Assembly: GCF_010993745.1 (NCBI RefSeq)
Contig: NZ_WOTN01000002.1
Coordinates: 1,922,001-1,986,000 of the forward strand
DNA: 64,000 nt
Origin: Fodinicola acaciae
Lineage (GTDB): Bacteria; Actinomycetota; Actinomycetes; Mycobacteriales; HKI-0501
Direction: 5' to 3'
This document shows positions 47,424 through 50,679 of the stretch, one piece after another. The translations under genes were made by a program, and so were the position numbers. The stretch's first letter is position 1. Every line of letters begins with the position of its first letter. The notes beneath the pieces were generated by a model that saw nothing but the letters and a program-made list of their open reading frames with translations, searched no databases and was not told where the DNA came from.

Positions 47424-48212
47424 TCACAGGGTGGTGACCTGCCAGTGCCGCTTGTTGATGATGTCGTCAAGGATCAGCCGCAGGCCGGCAACCGTGTGCC
47501 AGTGCGTGCCGGGCGAGCCGCCGTCGTGGAACAGGATGATGCAACCCGGCTGCATCGTGCGGCCGACCCAGTTGGCCATGTTGGCCGGCTGCATCAGCGG
47601 CTTCTGCCAGTCGGACGAGGTGACCCGCCAGCCGAGCGAGGCCAGGCCCAGGCCGGCCGCGACCTGCACCTCACGCGGCGTGAAGTCACCGTGCGGAGCG
47701 CGGAAATAGTACGGCCGCACCCCACCGCTGGCCTTGGTGATGATCAGGTTGGTCTGGCTGAGGTCCTTGGTGATCGTCGCCGCCGGCTGCTTACCGAGCT
47801 CCGGCTTGTGCCACATCGTGTGGTTGCACAGCGTGTGACCTTCCTTCACGATCTGCCGGGTCAGCTCCGGATGCTGGCGGACCCGGAAGCCGATCTCGCA
47901 GAACACCGCGTGCACGTGATATTCGCGCAGGACGGCGAGCACCTTGGGCGTCCACTGTGGATCCGGGCCGTCGTCGAAGGTGAGCGTGACGCCAGGCGTG
48001 CCGTTTTCCTCGTACACGGTCGCCGCCGGCTGCAGATGCCGTACGCCGTTGGGCGCTTGCGGCGGCGGTTTCGGCGTCGAGGCGGTCGGTGCGACGGCGA
48101 CCGGATTTGTCGCCTGTGGTGTCGAAGAATTGCCGCAACCAACGAGAAGTAAAGCCAATATGGCCAGTCCGGCGACGCCTGACCGGCGGAGAAACCTCGT
48201 CTTCGGGGTCAT
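47424..48212 (-). CDS. Polysaccharide deacetylase lipoprotein (CE4/NodB)
   Basis: This 262-residue exported lipoprotein has signal RRSGVAGLAILALLLVGC with lipobox Cys. The NodB domain reads GVTLTFDDGPDPQWTPKVLAVLREYHVHAVFCEIGFRV (metal/base TFDDGPD), HTLCNHTMWHKP (zinc H-x3-H type), YYFRAPHGDFTPRE and ILFHDGG. It should remove N-acetyl groups from peptidoglycan or another glycan. ATG 48212 was preferred to an opening 13 codons earlier because it fits the signal peptide. Confidence 0.9.
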   Translation of the reverse strand: MTPKTRFLRRSGVAGLAILALLLVGCGNSSTPQATNPVAVAPTASTPKPPPQAPNGVRHLQPAATVYEENGTPGVTLTFDDGPDPQWTPKVLAVLREYHVHAVFCEIGFRVRQHPELTRQIVKEGHTLCNHTMWHKPELGKQPAATITKDLSQTNLIITKASGGVRPYYFRAPHGDFTPREVQVAAGLGLASLGWRVTSSDWQKPLMQPANMANWVGRTMQPGCIILFHDGGSPGTHWHTVAGLRLILDDIINKRHWQVTTL

Positions 48213-48275
48213 TCGGCCAACGATACGCGCGTACGCCTGTTGACTGGACACCGTCGCGCAGCCGAGACTGTTTCC

Positions 48276-48350
48276 GTGCTCCTTCTCGTGCAGCGCATCT
48301 ACGTCGACCTGGCTCGGTCGACCACCTCTGGCTGTCGTCCCTGCCGCTGA
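48276..48350 (+). CDS. Cysteine-containing leader peptide of the sulfur operon
   Basis: GTG 48276 to TGA 48348-48350 encodes MLLLVQRIYVDLARSTTSGC and then RPCR. The R-x-x-VDL-x-R-x-x-S core with two Cys near the end is the pattern of the short leader peptides found before sulfur-metabolism genes in many actinobacteria. In mycobacteria comparable Cys-rich leaders work by attenuation that senses cysteine. It lies 60 bp before the OsmC start, in an otherwise empty 200-bp leader region. The ribosome site is weak. The function is inferred from pattern and position. Confidence 0.65.
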   Translation: MLLLVQRIYVDLARSTTSGCRPCR

Positions 48351-48410
48351 TCCACGCAGCCGGCTTTTCTTTTCGTTTCAGCCAGATTTCCGCGCCCAGA
48401 GGGGACAACC

Positions 48411-48911
48411 ATGTCTTTGACCGAGGTCATCGACGGCACCCAGGCCGCCGTCACCGCCGACCCGAAGAACGCCGCCGTTTCGTTCACCACCACCAACGAT
48501 CTGGTCTCCGGCACCGCGACGCAGGTGGCGGTGGCCGTACGCGACCACAGCTTCGGCGTCGACGAGCCGGCCGTGCTCGGCGGCGGCGACACCTCCGCCA
48601 ACCCGGTCGAGTACGCGCTCGCCGCACTCGGCTCCTGCCAGGTCATCACCTACCAGTTCTGGGCCGCAAGGCTGGGAATCCGGCTCGACGACGTGTCCGT
48701 CAAGGTGGACGGCGACCTCGACCTGCACGGCTTCTTCGGCTTCGACGAGACGACCCGCGCCGGCTTCGGCGACGTACGCGTGTCGGTGACGCTGACCGGT
48801 CCAGAGTCGCCGGAGCGCTATGAGGAGCTCAAGCGCCACGTCGACCAGCACTGCCCGGTGCTCGATCTGTTTCGCAATCCGACCCCGACCAAGACAGAAT
48901 TGACCGCATGA
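48411..48911 (+). CDS. OsmC-family protein
   Basis: This 166-residue OsmC/Ohr-type protein has GGGDTSANPVEYALAALGSCQVITYQFWAARLGIRLDDVSVKVDGDLDL with one reactive Cys, and HVDQHCPVLDLFRNPTPT with the second. These proteins reduce organic peroxides or handle sulfur compounds. ATG 48411 follows AGAGGGGA. It overlaps the MetY-type gene by 4 nt, and the leader peptide upstream links it to sulfur control. Confidence 0.9.
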   Translation: MSLTEVIDGTQAAVTADPKNAAVSFTTTNDLVSGTATQVAVAVRDHSFGVDEPAVLGGGDTSANPVEYALAALGSCQVITYQFWAARLGIRLDDVSVKVDGDLDLHGFFGFDETTRAGFGDVRVSVTLTGPESPERYEELKRHVDQHCPVLDLFRNPTPTKTELTA

Positions 48912-50200
48912 CAGACCGTCAGTGGGGCTTCCGCACGCGTGCGCTGCACGCGGGCGGGACGCCCGATCCCACCACCGGTGCTCGCGCCGTCCCGATCTAC
49001 CAGACGACCAGCTTCGTCTTCGAGGACGCCGACGACGCGGCCAACCTGTTCGCGCTGCAGAAATACGGCAACATCTACAGCCGGATCGGCAACCCGACGG
49101 TGGCCGCGTTCGAGGAGCGGGTCGCCAACCTGGAAGGTGGCATCGGCGCGGTGGCCACGGCCAGTGGGCAGGCCGCCGAGTTCCTGACCTTCGCCGCGCT
49201 CGCCGAGTCCGGCGACCACATCGTGTCGGCCGCCGGCCTCTACGGCGGCACCGTGACACAGCTCGACGTGACGCTGCGCCGCTTCGGCATCGACACGACT
49301 TTCGTCGCCGGCGACGACACCGAGGCGTACGCGGCGGCCGTCACGCCGCGGACGAAGGCCATCTACACCGAGGTGATCGGCAATCCGTCGGGTGACATCG
49401 CCGATCTCGACGGGTTGTCGGCGTTGGCGCGGGCGCACGGCATTCCGCTGGTGGTCGACGCGACCGTCGCCACGCCGTATCTGTGCCGGCCGCTGGAACA
49501 CGGCGCCGACATCGTGCTGCATTCGGCGACGAAGTTTCTCGGCGGTCACGGCACGACCCTGGGTGGCGTGGTCGTCGAGAGCGGCCGTTTCGACTGGGGA
49601 AACGGAAACTTCCCGCGGATGACCGAAGTGGTGCCGAGCTACGGTGGCCTGCGTTACTGGGAAAACTTCGGCGAATACGCGTTTTGTACGCGGTTGCGCG
49701 CCGAACAGCTGCGCGACATCGGGCCGGTGCTGTCGCCGCACTCGGCTTTCCTGCTGTTGCAGGGAATCGAGACGTTGCCGCACCGGATGGACGCGCATGT
49801 CGGCAATGCCGCGGCGGTCGCCCGGTGGTTGGCCGCCGACGACCGGGTTTCCTGGGTCAAGTACGCCGGCCTGCCCGACCATCCGCATCACGACCGCGCC
49901 GCGCGCTATCTGCCGGCCGGGCCGGGTGCGGTGTTTTCCTTCGGCATCCGCGGCGGCCGTGCCGCCGGCCAGAAGTTCGTCGAGTCGGTGGAGTTGTGCA
50001 GCCATCTGGCCAACATCGGCGACGCGCGTACGCTCGTCATCCATCCGGCCTCCACGACGCACCAGCAGCTGTCGGACGCGCAGCTGGTGGCTGCCGGCGT
50101 CGGACCGGATCTGATCCGGCTGTCGGTCGGTCTGGAGGACCTGGACGACATCCTGTGGGATCTGGACCAAGCACTGGCGGAGGCGGTGAAGGAGTCGTGA
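48908..50200 (+). CDS. metY: O-acetylhomoserine sulfhydrylase (MetY-type, Cys/Met metabolism PLP enzyme)
   Basis: This 430-residue PLP enzyme makes homocysteine (or cysteine) from an O-acetylated amino acid and sulfide. RALHAGGTPDPTTGARAVPIYQTTSFVFEDADDAANLFALQKYGNIYSRIGNPTV is the family start, ATASGQAAEFL binds PLP phosphate, and DIVLHSATKFLGGHG contains the Schiff-base Lys. The C-terminal VIHPASTTHQQLSDAQLVAAGVGPDLIRLSVGLED is typical. It is coupled to osmC upstream and a CoA-binding protein downstream. Confidence 0.93.
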   Translation: MTDRQWGFRTRALHAGGTPDPTTGARAVPIYQTTSFVFEDADDAANLFALQKYGNIYSRIGNPTVAAFEERVANLEGGIGAVATASGQAAEFLTFAALAESGDHIVSAAGLYGGTVTQLDVTLRRFGIDTTFVAGDDTEAYAAAVTPRTKAIYTEVIGNPSGDIADLDGLSALARAHGIPLVVDATVATPYLCRPLEHGADIVLHSATKFLGGHGTTLGGVVVESGRFDWGNGNFPRMTEVVPSYGGLRYWENFGEYAFCTRLRAEQLRDIGPVLSPHSAFLLLQGIETLPHRMDAHVGNAAAVARWLAADDRVSWVKYAGLPDHPHHDRAARYLPAGPGAVFSFGIRGGRAAGQKFVESVELCSHLANIGDARTLVIHPASTTHQQLSDAQLVAAGVGPDLIRLSVGLEDLDDILWDLDQALAEAVKES

Positions 50201-50679
50201 GCTGGGTCGGACCATCGGCACGCGAACGCCAGCGACTGTTGGCCGCGACCAGGTCGGTGACGCTGGTCGGCGCGTCGGCGAACACGGCTCGTCCGAGCTA
50301 TTTCGTTGCCACCTATTTGCTTTCGTCCACGCCATACCAGATTTACTTTGTGAATCCACGGTTGGACAGCCTGCTCGGCCAGCCGGTCTATCCGTCGCTG
50401 ACGGACCTGCCGGAAAAGCCGGACCTGGTCTCGGTTTTCCGCAAGCACGACGACCTTCCGCAGGTCACCGAGGAGGTCATCGAGGCCGGCGGCCGGGTTC
50501 TGTGGTTTCAGCTCGGGTTGTGGCACGAGGAGGCCGCGGCGACCGGCGAGGCGGCCGGCCTGACCGTCGTGATGAACCGGTGCGTGAAGATCGAGCACGC
50601 CAGGTTTGCCGGCGGCTTGCATCTGGCCGGCTTCAACACCGGCGTCGTATCCTCCCGGCGGCGCTCACCTTTGTCTTAG
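50197..50679 (+). CDS. CoA-binding domain protein
   Basis: This 160-residue Rossmann protein has VTLVGASANTARPSYFVATYLLSSTPYQIYFVNPRLDSLLGQPVYPSLTDLPEKPDLVSVFR, the CoA_binding_2 pattern of YccU-like proteins, with WFQLGLWHEEAA and VMNRCVKIEHAR. GTG 50197 overlaps the metY stop (GTGA). Its linkage to metY and osmC is common in actinobacteria; the exact role is unknown. Confidence 0.88.
   Translation: MSWVGPSARERQRLLAATRSVTLVGASANTARPSYFVATYLLSSTPYQIYFVNPRLDSLLGQPVYPSLTDLPEKPDLVSVFRKHDDLPQVTEEVIEAGGRVLWFQLGLWHEEAAATGEAAGLTVVMNRCVKIEHARFAGGLHLAGFNTGVVSSRRRSPLS

Follow-up and report, generated by a model that had tools for sequence, protein, structure and literature searches.

Known cysteine leaders and the Fodinicola acaciae locus

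In mycobacteria, cysteine-rich small open reading frames (ORFs) on leaderless mRNAs precede cysA2 and nirA, and ribosome occupancy was shown for the cysA2 small ORF of M. smegmatis (available part of Shell 2015, PMC4633059). Three further papers, in the excerpts available (PMC13236596, PMC9094748 and PMC9031893), cite Canestrari 2020 for cysteine-responsive attenuation by Cys-rich ORFs. Here we describe a leader ORF of Fodinicola acaciae, located in a stretch of 64,000 nucleotides (contig NZ_WOTN01000002.1, positions 1,922,001 to 1,986,000; denoted the window) upstream of genes encoding an OsmC-family protein, a MetY-type sulfhydrylase and a CoA-binding protein. Its peptide, VLLLVQRIYVDLARSTTSGCRPCR, carries a Val-Asp-Leu (VDL) motif that is common to the mycobacterial polycysteine leaders, in agreement with the actinobacterial association claimed by an earlier reading of the bare sequence (the original prediction). 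The likeness to the polycysteine ORFs includes a predicted leaderless start, Cys near the stop codon and sulfur genes downstream; the difference is that the window leader has two separated Cys codons and no adjacent run. The mycobacterial members, VLTKRRAVDLCRVAGCCCCRCR before DUF4395 or rhodanese genes (L190, L191) and VALVARRHVDFKRVCSCCCLP before a sulfite reductase gene (L198), come from the L109 (Mycobacterium sp.) and L111 (Mycolicibacillus trivialis) genomes. Its motif and the genes behind it place the window leader with a type tested elsewhere; on its own it adds one example to a group that had been noticed before. The comparison links the mycobacterial polycysteine ORFs with the scattered "putative leader peptides".

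That name is the one given to the NCBIfam family NF042934 (cis_reg_atten). The whole 19-position model aligns to residues 2-20 of the window peptide, and relatives over its cut-off are, as in the window, short ORFs before a sulfur gene. The window leader differs in having Ile-Tyr instead of the commonest Arg-His before VDL. Since its score of 22.4 bits (E 6.7e-5) is lower than the 27-bit cut-off, it is not filed as a family member; in the genome search it scored 20.0 bits (E 0.009), again below the cut-off. Other cysteine leaders are more distant. In the available part of Seliverstov 2005 (PMC1262725), candidate cys leader peptides likewise have Cys near the stop, lie upstream of cysteine operons and lack conserved terminators, but they contain runs of Cys codons and stand before other genes in other genera. 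The uORFC-8-2 before cysS of Rhodobacterales, a proposed cysteine attenuator, has tandem Cys codons dominated by UGC and an intrinsic terminator (PMC8632094, available part), whereas the family of the window leader has one UGU column and a peptide motif. A rare control codon is also found in the enterobacterial leu attenuator (CUA), where Leu has several isoacceptors, in contrast to F. acaciae with one tRNA-Cys for both codons; the accessible text on that system (PMC1183508) gives selective charging of isoacceptors as one account of biased control codons.

The leader ORF scores far above chance

The leader ORF is found on the forward strand at 48276-48350, begins with GTG, has 24 codons followed by TGA and ends 60 nt before osmC. 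The claimed 24-codon GTG ORF with two Cys near its stop is indeed present, the two being Cys20 (TGT, 48333-48335) and Cys23 (TGC, 48342-48344). The claimed motif, R-x-x-VDL-x-R-x-x-S, holds apart from the spacing at its end, where R14 to S18 is R-x-x-x-S and the whole reads R-x-x-V-D-L-x-R-x-x-x-S; its Asp11 is encoded by GAC at 48306-48308. A hidden Markov model (HMM) made from 12 other leaders, with the window's own left out, scored 29.1 bits (E 4.8e-8) at the leader ORF, compared with 11.4 bits for the runner-up among 1491 six-frame segments of the window and a maximum of 12.7 bits on 20 dinucleotide shuffles of the window. The leader ORF is genuine, chance being excluded by this profile search. 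It fits our working definition of the group, namely a short ORF with [VI]-D-[LFHMN], a Cys 9 codons past the Asp and a stop soon after, and in addition its sensor Cys is TGT and a sulfur gene (OsmC-MetY) lies downstream. Rfam families at gathering score gave 0 matches in the window.

A TGT codon nine codons after the motif Asp

Orthologous leaders were compared for codon conservation in two sets with one peptide in common. Set 1 comprises 66 leaders with 56 distinct peptides and requires the motif, a Cys and a stop within 22 residues. Set 2 comprises 100 of 149 places found order-wide, 99 of them anchored on the Asp, with 87 distinct tails. The one left unanchored (L321, genome G042) is a polycysteine leader whose motif Asp is replaced by Gly. 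The Asp, demanded by the search pattern, is present in 56/56 distinct set 1 leaders. When these are aligned on it, a Cys stands 9 codons further downstream in 56/56, and the codon is TGT in 55/56; the baseline, from long ORFs of the set 1 loci with high GC content at third codon positions, is 113 TGT among 697 Cys codons. Set 2 has Cys at the sensor column in 98/99, and in 99/99 once the anchor of L285 is corrected, since the pattern took a wrong Asp there (its TGT was counted after the codons were read). Among the 87 distinct tails of set 2 the sensor codon is TGT in 82 and TGC in 5, whereas nearby genes have TGT at 65/460. The TGT share of Cys codons in nearby genes is 14-16% in both sets, and long ORFs of the window have 45 TGT among 205 Cys codons. 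Cys20 therefore occupies the conserved TGT position (55/56, 82/87) and Cys23 is an extra residue outside the conserved Cys column, so that in this alignment the two Cys codons of the original prediction are not equivalent.

Counted by genome, set 2 (n=48) shows a TGT majority in 42, a TGC majority in 5 and one tie. The TGC cases belong to one lineage (G027, G036 and G045), to the polycysteine forms of G021 and G059, and to one of two leaders in G032. The lineage with the TGC sensor (L230, L232, L234, L309, L310 and L312) is a natural contrast to the TGT rule. The non-TGT exceptions L157 (set 1) and L194 (outside both sets) both precede sulfite reductase. Of 32 additional loci in neither set, some of which repeat set 1, 25 could be anchored and 24 of those have TGT. 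At the Cys two codons after the Asp, TGT is found in 1/15 cases in set 1 and 3/23 in set 2. The remaining leader Cys codons are TGT in 7/50 cases in set 2, which is not raised, and in a raised 16/37 in set 1 (test on 36 relative to baseline, p 1e-4); the simple rule that other leader Cys codons follow ordinary usage throughout fails for this set 1 remainder.

The constancy of the Cys and of the motif is partly a product of sample choice by a protein model. The TGT bias, counted irrespective of relatedness, is not such a sampling effect, because a search by protein model is blind to the choice between synonymous codons. The F. acaciae genome contains 48 tRNA genes by RF00005, with a single tRNA-Cys, anticodon GCA. 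Since this one tRNA reads both Cys codons, selective charging of isoacceptors cannot explain the TGT bias; that being a leading explanation for codon bias in attenuators, the near-constant UGU is unexpected. The explanations left are slow wobble decoding, in our view the more likely, and codon-specific arrest. The cysteine gauge is probably a single, rarely used Cys codon at a fixed distance behind a peptide motif, as judged from these alignments. So far as the literature was searched, the novel element is one UGU kept at a constant distance from a peptide motif under selection: in the open literature we recognised no paper with the UGU rule or the VDL motif, and Canestrari 2020 may discuss both. 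One exact codon and one peptide motif are pinpointed as mutation targets, and the near-constant UGU makes the choice of control codon in attenuators directly testable.

Selection acts on the peptide

In the codons of R-R-H-V-D-L third positions vary (Asp is GAC in 36 and GAT in 20), first and second positions vary less, and the sensor codon is the sole place with a nearly fixed third position. A comparison of related leaders, which avoids most of the sampling bias of the protein model, showed that 101 of 139 single-difference codons are synonymous against ~32% expected, though the pairs are not independent and 69 of the 101 synonymous cases come from two Rhodococcus groups. Fourteen codons with several differences were omitted and L013 dropped out of this comparison. 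Two groups show no synonymous excess, with ratios of synonymous to nonsynonymous of 1 to 3 (L051/L091) and 3 to 6 (L105/L125). Conservation of the motif at the RNA level is unlikely, since third positions vary and first and second hardly do, in a sample drawn with a protein model. A simple codon counter needs no conserved peptide before the Cys codon, and assistance by the nascent chain is therefore retained as the boldest of the explanations.

Leaders precede sulfur genes elsewhere in the genome and order

The F. acaciae genome (G000) was searched with NF042934 at a loose threshold, and hits were read in frame and chosen by motif and nearby stop. Eight further leader-like short ORFs were found (E 9e-6 to 0.045), six of them before sulfur or thiol genes: a sulfite/nitrite reductase gene (L016), an NtaA/DmoA-type monooxygenase gene (L020), an SsuD-like alkanesulfonate monooxygenase gene (L022), an SsuA-type binding protein gene (L028), a second OsmC gene (L031) and DUF4395 and rhodanese genes (L037). 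The other two precede a DNA-binding protein gene (L034) and an ORF without Pfam match (L014). The protein downstream of L034 has 169 amino acids and an OmpR/PhoB-type DNA-binding domain, with no receiver domain at E 1e-4, and it is a possible cysteine-controlled regulator. The L014 leader is near-identical to L029 in another genome of the genus, and the ORFs behind them, 469 and 414 amino acids within the locus and without Pfam match, are a candidate new sulfur gene.

Across the order, 55 of 61 genomes have an NF042934 match at E <= 0.001, compared with none of 14 control genomes; these matches do not include the window leader (E 0.009). At E <= 10, 10 of the 14 controls match, none over the cut-off, and at E <= 2e-5 a phylum sample gave 6/119. 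Downstream ORFs of set 2 (n=87) were chosen for their coding bias no more than 330 nt past the leader stop, and matches were counted at E <= 1e-10. They include rhodanese (20), sulfite/nitrite reductase (16), luciferase-like monooxygenases (7), DUF4395 (6), transporter permease domain (6), APS kinase (5), TauE (4), cysteine dioxygenase (3) and TauD (2).

At osmC loci the leader goes with a downstream metY. When named genomes were scanned with an OsmC alignment, at least 80 loci were retained; these were searched with a leader profile that includes the window leader and L051. Among the matches listed, 16 osmC loci are followed by metY on the same strand, and 14 of these have a VDL-type leader, compared with 8 of the 64 other osmC loci (odds ratio 49, p 2e-8, kinship disregarded); leaders and metY were counted by eye, and metY is uncounted at L112, whose sequence ends 201 nt past osmC. 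The 14 leaders stop 46-112 nt short of the OsmC match and belong to Kutzneria, Pseudonocardia thermophila, ten Rhodococcus and two metagenome-assembled genomes. L091 (Allokutzneria) and its near-copy L051 carry osmC and a metY in divergent orientation, with two VDL leaders back to back, one for each gene. A general link of the leader to osmC was rejected, as the Amycolatopsis loci of the scan show no metY within ~4 kb and no leader within 700 nt.

A probable cysteine-responsive attenuator

The leader probably mediates cysteine-responsive attenuation of the osmC-metY-CoA-binding operon, as the original prediction proposed for a VDL-type leader; the likeness to NF042934, the leaders at osmC-metY loci and the sulfur genes of the relatives support that proposal. 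Sequence, conservation, codon bias, gene context and geometry are observed; the start site, translation, stalling, the direction of the response and, most of all, the action of the hairpin are inferred. It would add the operon to the likely cysteine-controlled set of an actinobacterium. Transcription would start at or beside the GTG, and a ribosome would begin on the leader immediately. How far the only tRNA-Cys is charged would be sensed mainly at one slow codon, UGU20, 9 codons after Asp11. With ample Cys-tRNA the ribosome would reach the stop and leave, and the RNA behind the stop would fold into an "off" state, here most simply a hairpin at 48343-48364 and its U tract. With scarce Cys-tRNA it would stall at UGU20 and cover the 5' arm of the hairpin, and the sulfur genes would be expressed.

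A leaderless start of the window leader is likely by its upstream sequence. A -35-like TTGACT (48240-48245, forward strand) has its first base 36 nt before the GTG, followed after 18 nt by a weak -10-like GAGACT (48264-48269, 3/6 to TATAAT), 6 nt before the GTG. Among 142 distinct leaders with 320 candidate starts, TTGAC occurs 17 times 35-36 nt ahead of the start and 0-3 times at each other offset of 20-59, and the 36-nt distance is common to eight other leaders, L051 and L059 included. In 31 of the 320 candidates a TANNNT ends 7 nt ahead of an in-frame start; the adjacent gaps have counts of 6 and 8, and the other gaps up to 24 have 0-4. The window -10 is not of this form. A general promoter scan of 48000-48900 found no promoter.

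Three pairings are predicted in the leader RNA, all on the forward strand. A hairpin inside the ORF, GTCGACC/GGTCGAC (48303-48322), occurs in the predicted minimum-energy folds. A terminator-like hairpin with one bulge, GCCGCTG/CAGCCGGC, spans the leader stop and is followed by TTTTCTTTTC (48343-48374, stem 48343-48364); its energy is -9.4 kcal/mol (z -0.78), or -8.2 in a separate hairpin search. An alternative pairing of CTGGCTG (48328-48334) with CAGCCGG (48357-48363) is exclusive with it. The two exclusive pairings expected of a classical transcription attenuator are both present; their energies are within those of shuffles, and a ribosome that has reached the stop masks the hairpin, too. 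The switch was tested by predicted folding with a ribosome footprint masked at each leader codon. With an A-site codon from 14 to 18 the footprint favours the terminator hairpin (0.70-0.99), and with one from 19 to 25 it blocks both pairings. The hairpin is a tentative candidate for the switch. A strong intrinsic terminator was rejected, as a strict terminator scan found none at the leader and the hairpin is within shuffle range. Fold z scores of the window leader are +0.42 after the stop and -1.53 across it. In the family the mean z is -0.63 after the stop, -0.85 across it and -0.29 in the upstream control, with 12/56, 13/56 and 4/56 leaders, respectively, below z -1.645, and a common family-wide fold is too weak to name. 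Near the leader stop, hairpins with a T tract are somewhat more frequent in the family than expected. The stems by the stop of L051 and L091, CTGACC/GGTCAG and CTGACG/CGTCAG, show a paired change, seen by eye.

Several observations weigh against cysteine-responsive attenuation at this locus. The window leader scores under the NF042934 cut-off, and the leaders L014 and L034 precede no recognised sulfur gene. The 14 osmC-metY leader loci are not independent, ten being Rhodococcus, and L102 and L119 have osmC-metY with no leader detected. At 22 further metY orthologs no leader was detected (0/22) within 1.2 kb upstream at E 0.05, using a profile that omits the window leader and leaving out a partial match at L189; nor was one detected at the metY of L002, from the same genus. 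A tie of the leader to metY was rejected on these two results, and since 0/22 of the further orthologs carry one, the leader accompanies osmC-first operons and not metY as such. As to the RNA, the hairpin is no stronger than in shuffles (whole leader z -1.28), and terminator-like hairpins of <= -8 kcal/mol occur in only 8 of 56 leaders, with 2.3 expected. The switch is not clean, because the hairpin is masked whether the ribosome sits on the stop codon or on Cys20, and in free nascent RNA the alternative pairing has the higher pair probability (0.71, compared with 0.23 for the terminator).

How stalling would be transmitted to osmC can be read in more than one way. Translation attenuation, in which a ribosome stalled at Cys keeps the Shine-Dalgarno (SD) sequence of the next gene open, is described for M. 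smegmatis cysteine genes in the available parts of PMC13236596 and PMC9031893, and the polycysteine ORFs are relatives of the window leader. The fold of 48276-48425 pairs part of the osmC SD, whose predicted accessibility is 0.25 in free RNA, 0.24 with Cys20 in the A site, 0.23 with Cys23 and 0.02 with the stop codon. Compared with a ribosome at the stop, one stalled at Cys gives a more accessible SD, so that a translational switch is possible. Stalling at either Cys, however, leaves the SD as in free RNA, and the peak (0.44-0.52) is reached with codons 10-13 in the A site, not at Cys; we hold this route to be possible but rather doubtful. Control by Rho, with release at the leader stop exposing the RNA to the factor and stalling preventing it, seems unlikely. 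It was proposed for mycobacterial cys leaders without terminators (available part of PMC1262725), and 48 of 56 leaders have no terminator-like hairpin at -8 kcal/mol, but just 60 nt separate the window leader stop from osmC.

Arrest assisted by the nascent chain, in which R-x-H-V-D-L in the exit tunnel sensitises the ribosome at UGU or senses a sulfur metabolite, is a tentative explanation. It would account for the nine-codon spacing, fixed in 56/56 and, with one anchor corrected, 99/99, and for amino-acid selection together with the strongest codon bias at that single Cys in the presence of one tRNA-Cys. Against it, the members were found by a protein model that probably includes motif and Cys, which makes the constancy partly sample choice, and other set 1 Cys codons near the end are also TGT-raised (16/37). 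Along the same line, we offer as a speculative proposal that VDL leaders are single-codon arrest peptides, in which a conserved stretch of the nascent chain, at a constant nine-codon distance, arms the ribosome, and one UGU, decoded through G-U wobble by the only tRNA-Cys, acts as a switch that responds to cysteinyl-tRNA supply or to a sulfur metabolite. If true, the mycobacterial polycysteine runs would be a derived elaboration, and in many actinobacterial genomes copies of the leader would control several sulfur operons. That the leader instead makes a trans-acting small protein, for example binding thiol or metal, and has no cis regulation, would agree with selection at the amino-acid level; copies before different sulfur genes and the choice of a rare codon at one place make this very improbable. 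The ORF is short and below the NF042934 cut-off, as a chance ORF might be, but its profile score against shuffles and the leaders at osmC-metY loci leave that explanation a negligible share. Cysteine-responsive attenuation stays our reading of the locus as a probable one.

The operon and its neighbours

The genes downstream of the leader, all on the forward strand, encode the OsmC-family protein (48411-48911, 166 amino acids, PF02566, E 1.3e-21), preceded by an SD-like AGAGGGG (48398-48404), the MetY-type O-acetylhomoserine/O-acetylserine sulfhydrylase (48908-50200, 430 amino acids, TIGR01326, 613.9 bits, over cut-off) and the CoA-binding protein (50197-50679, 160 amino acids, GTG start, PF13380, E 7.2e-36). 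Adjoining genes overlap by 4 nt and by this layout form one operon; these overlaps and the three domain matches bear out the sulfur operon named in the original prediction. Cys76 and Cys148 of OsmC are both invariant in a 14-sequence OsmC alignment. A relative of the CoA-binding gene follows metY in 22/22 further metY orthologs examined and in L002.

Seven genomes each have two leader matches, one per strand, that are separated by 72-174 nt and face outwards, a recurring divergent pair (G044:C7:63753/63980, G013:C1:6931167/6931391, G026:C25:92905/93132, G035:C1:624350/624577, G018:C1:2790303/2790528, G023:C57:40374/40500 and G053:C482:2995/3206).

Upstream of the window leader lies a divergent polysaccharide deacetylase gene. 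In G001, the other genome of the genus, the deacetylase gene on one side and metY with the CoA-binding gene on the other are conserved, and the leader and osmC were not found between these neighbours (L002:620-1500). The sequence between deacetylase and metY differs there and includes a long minus-strand ORF. G001 also encodes a second MetY, 55% identical, which is preceded by its own leader.

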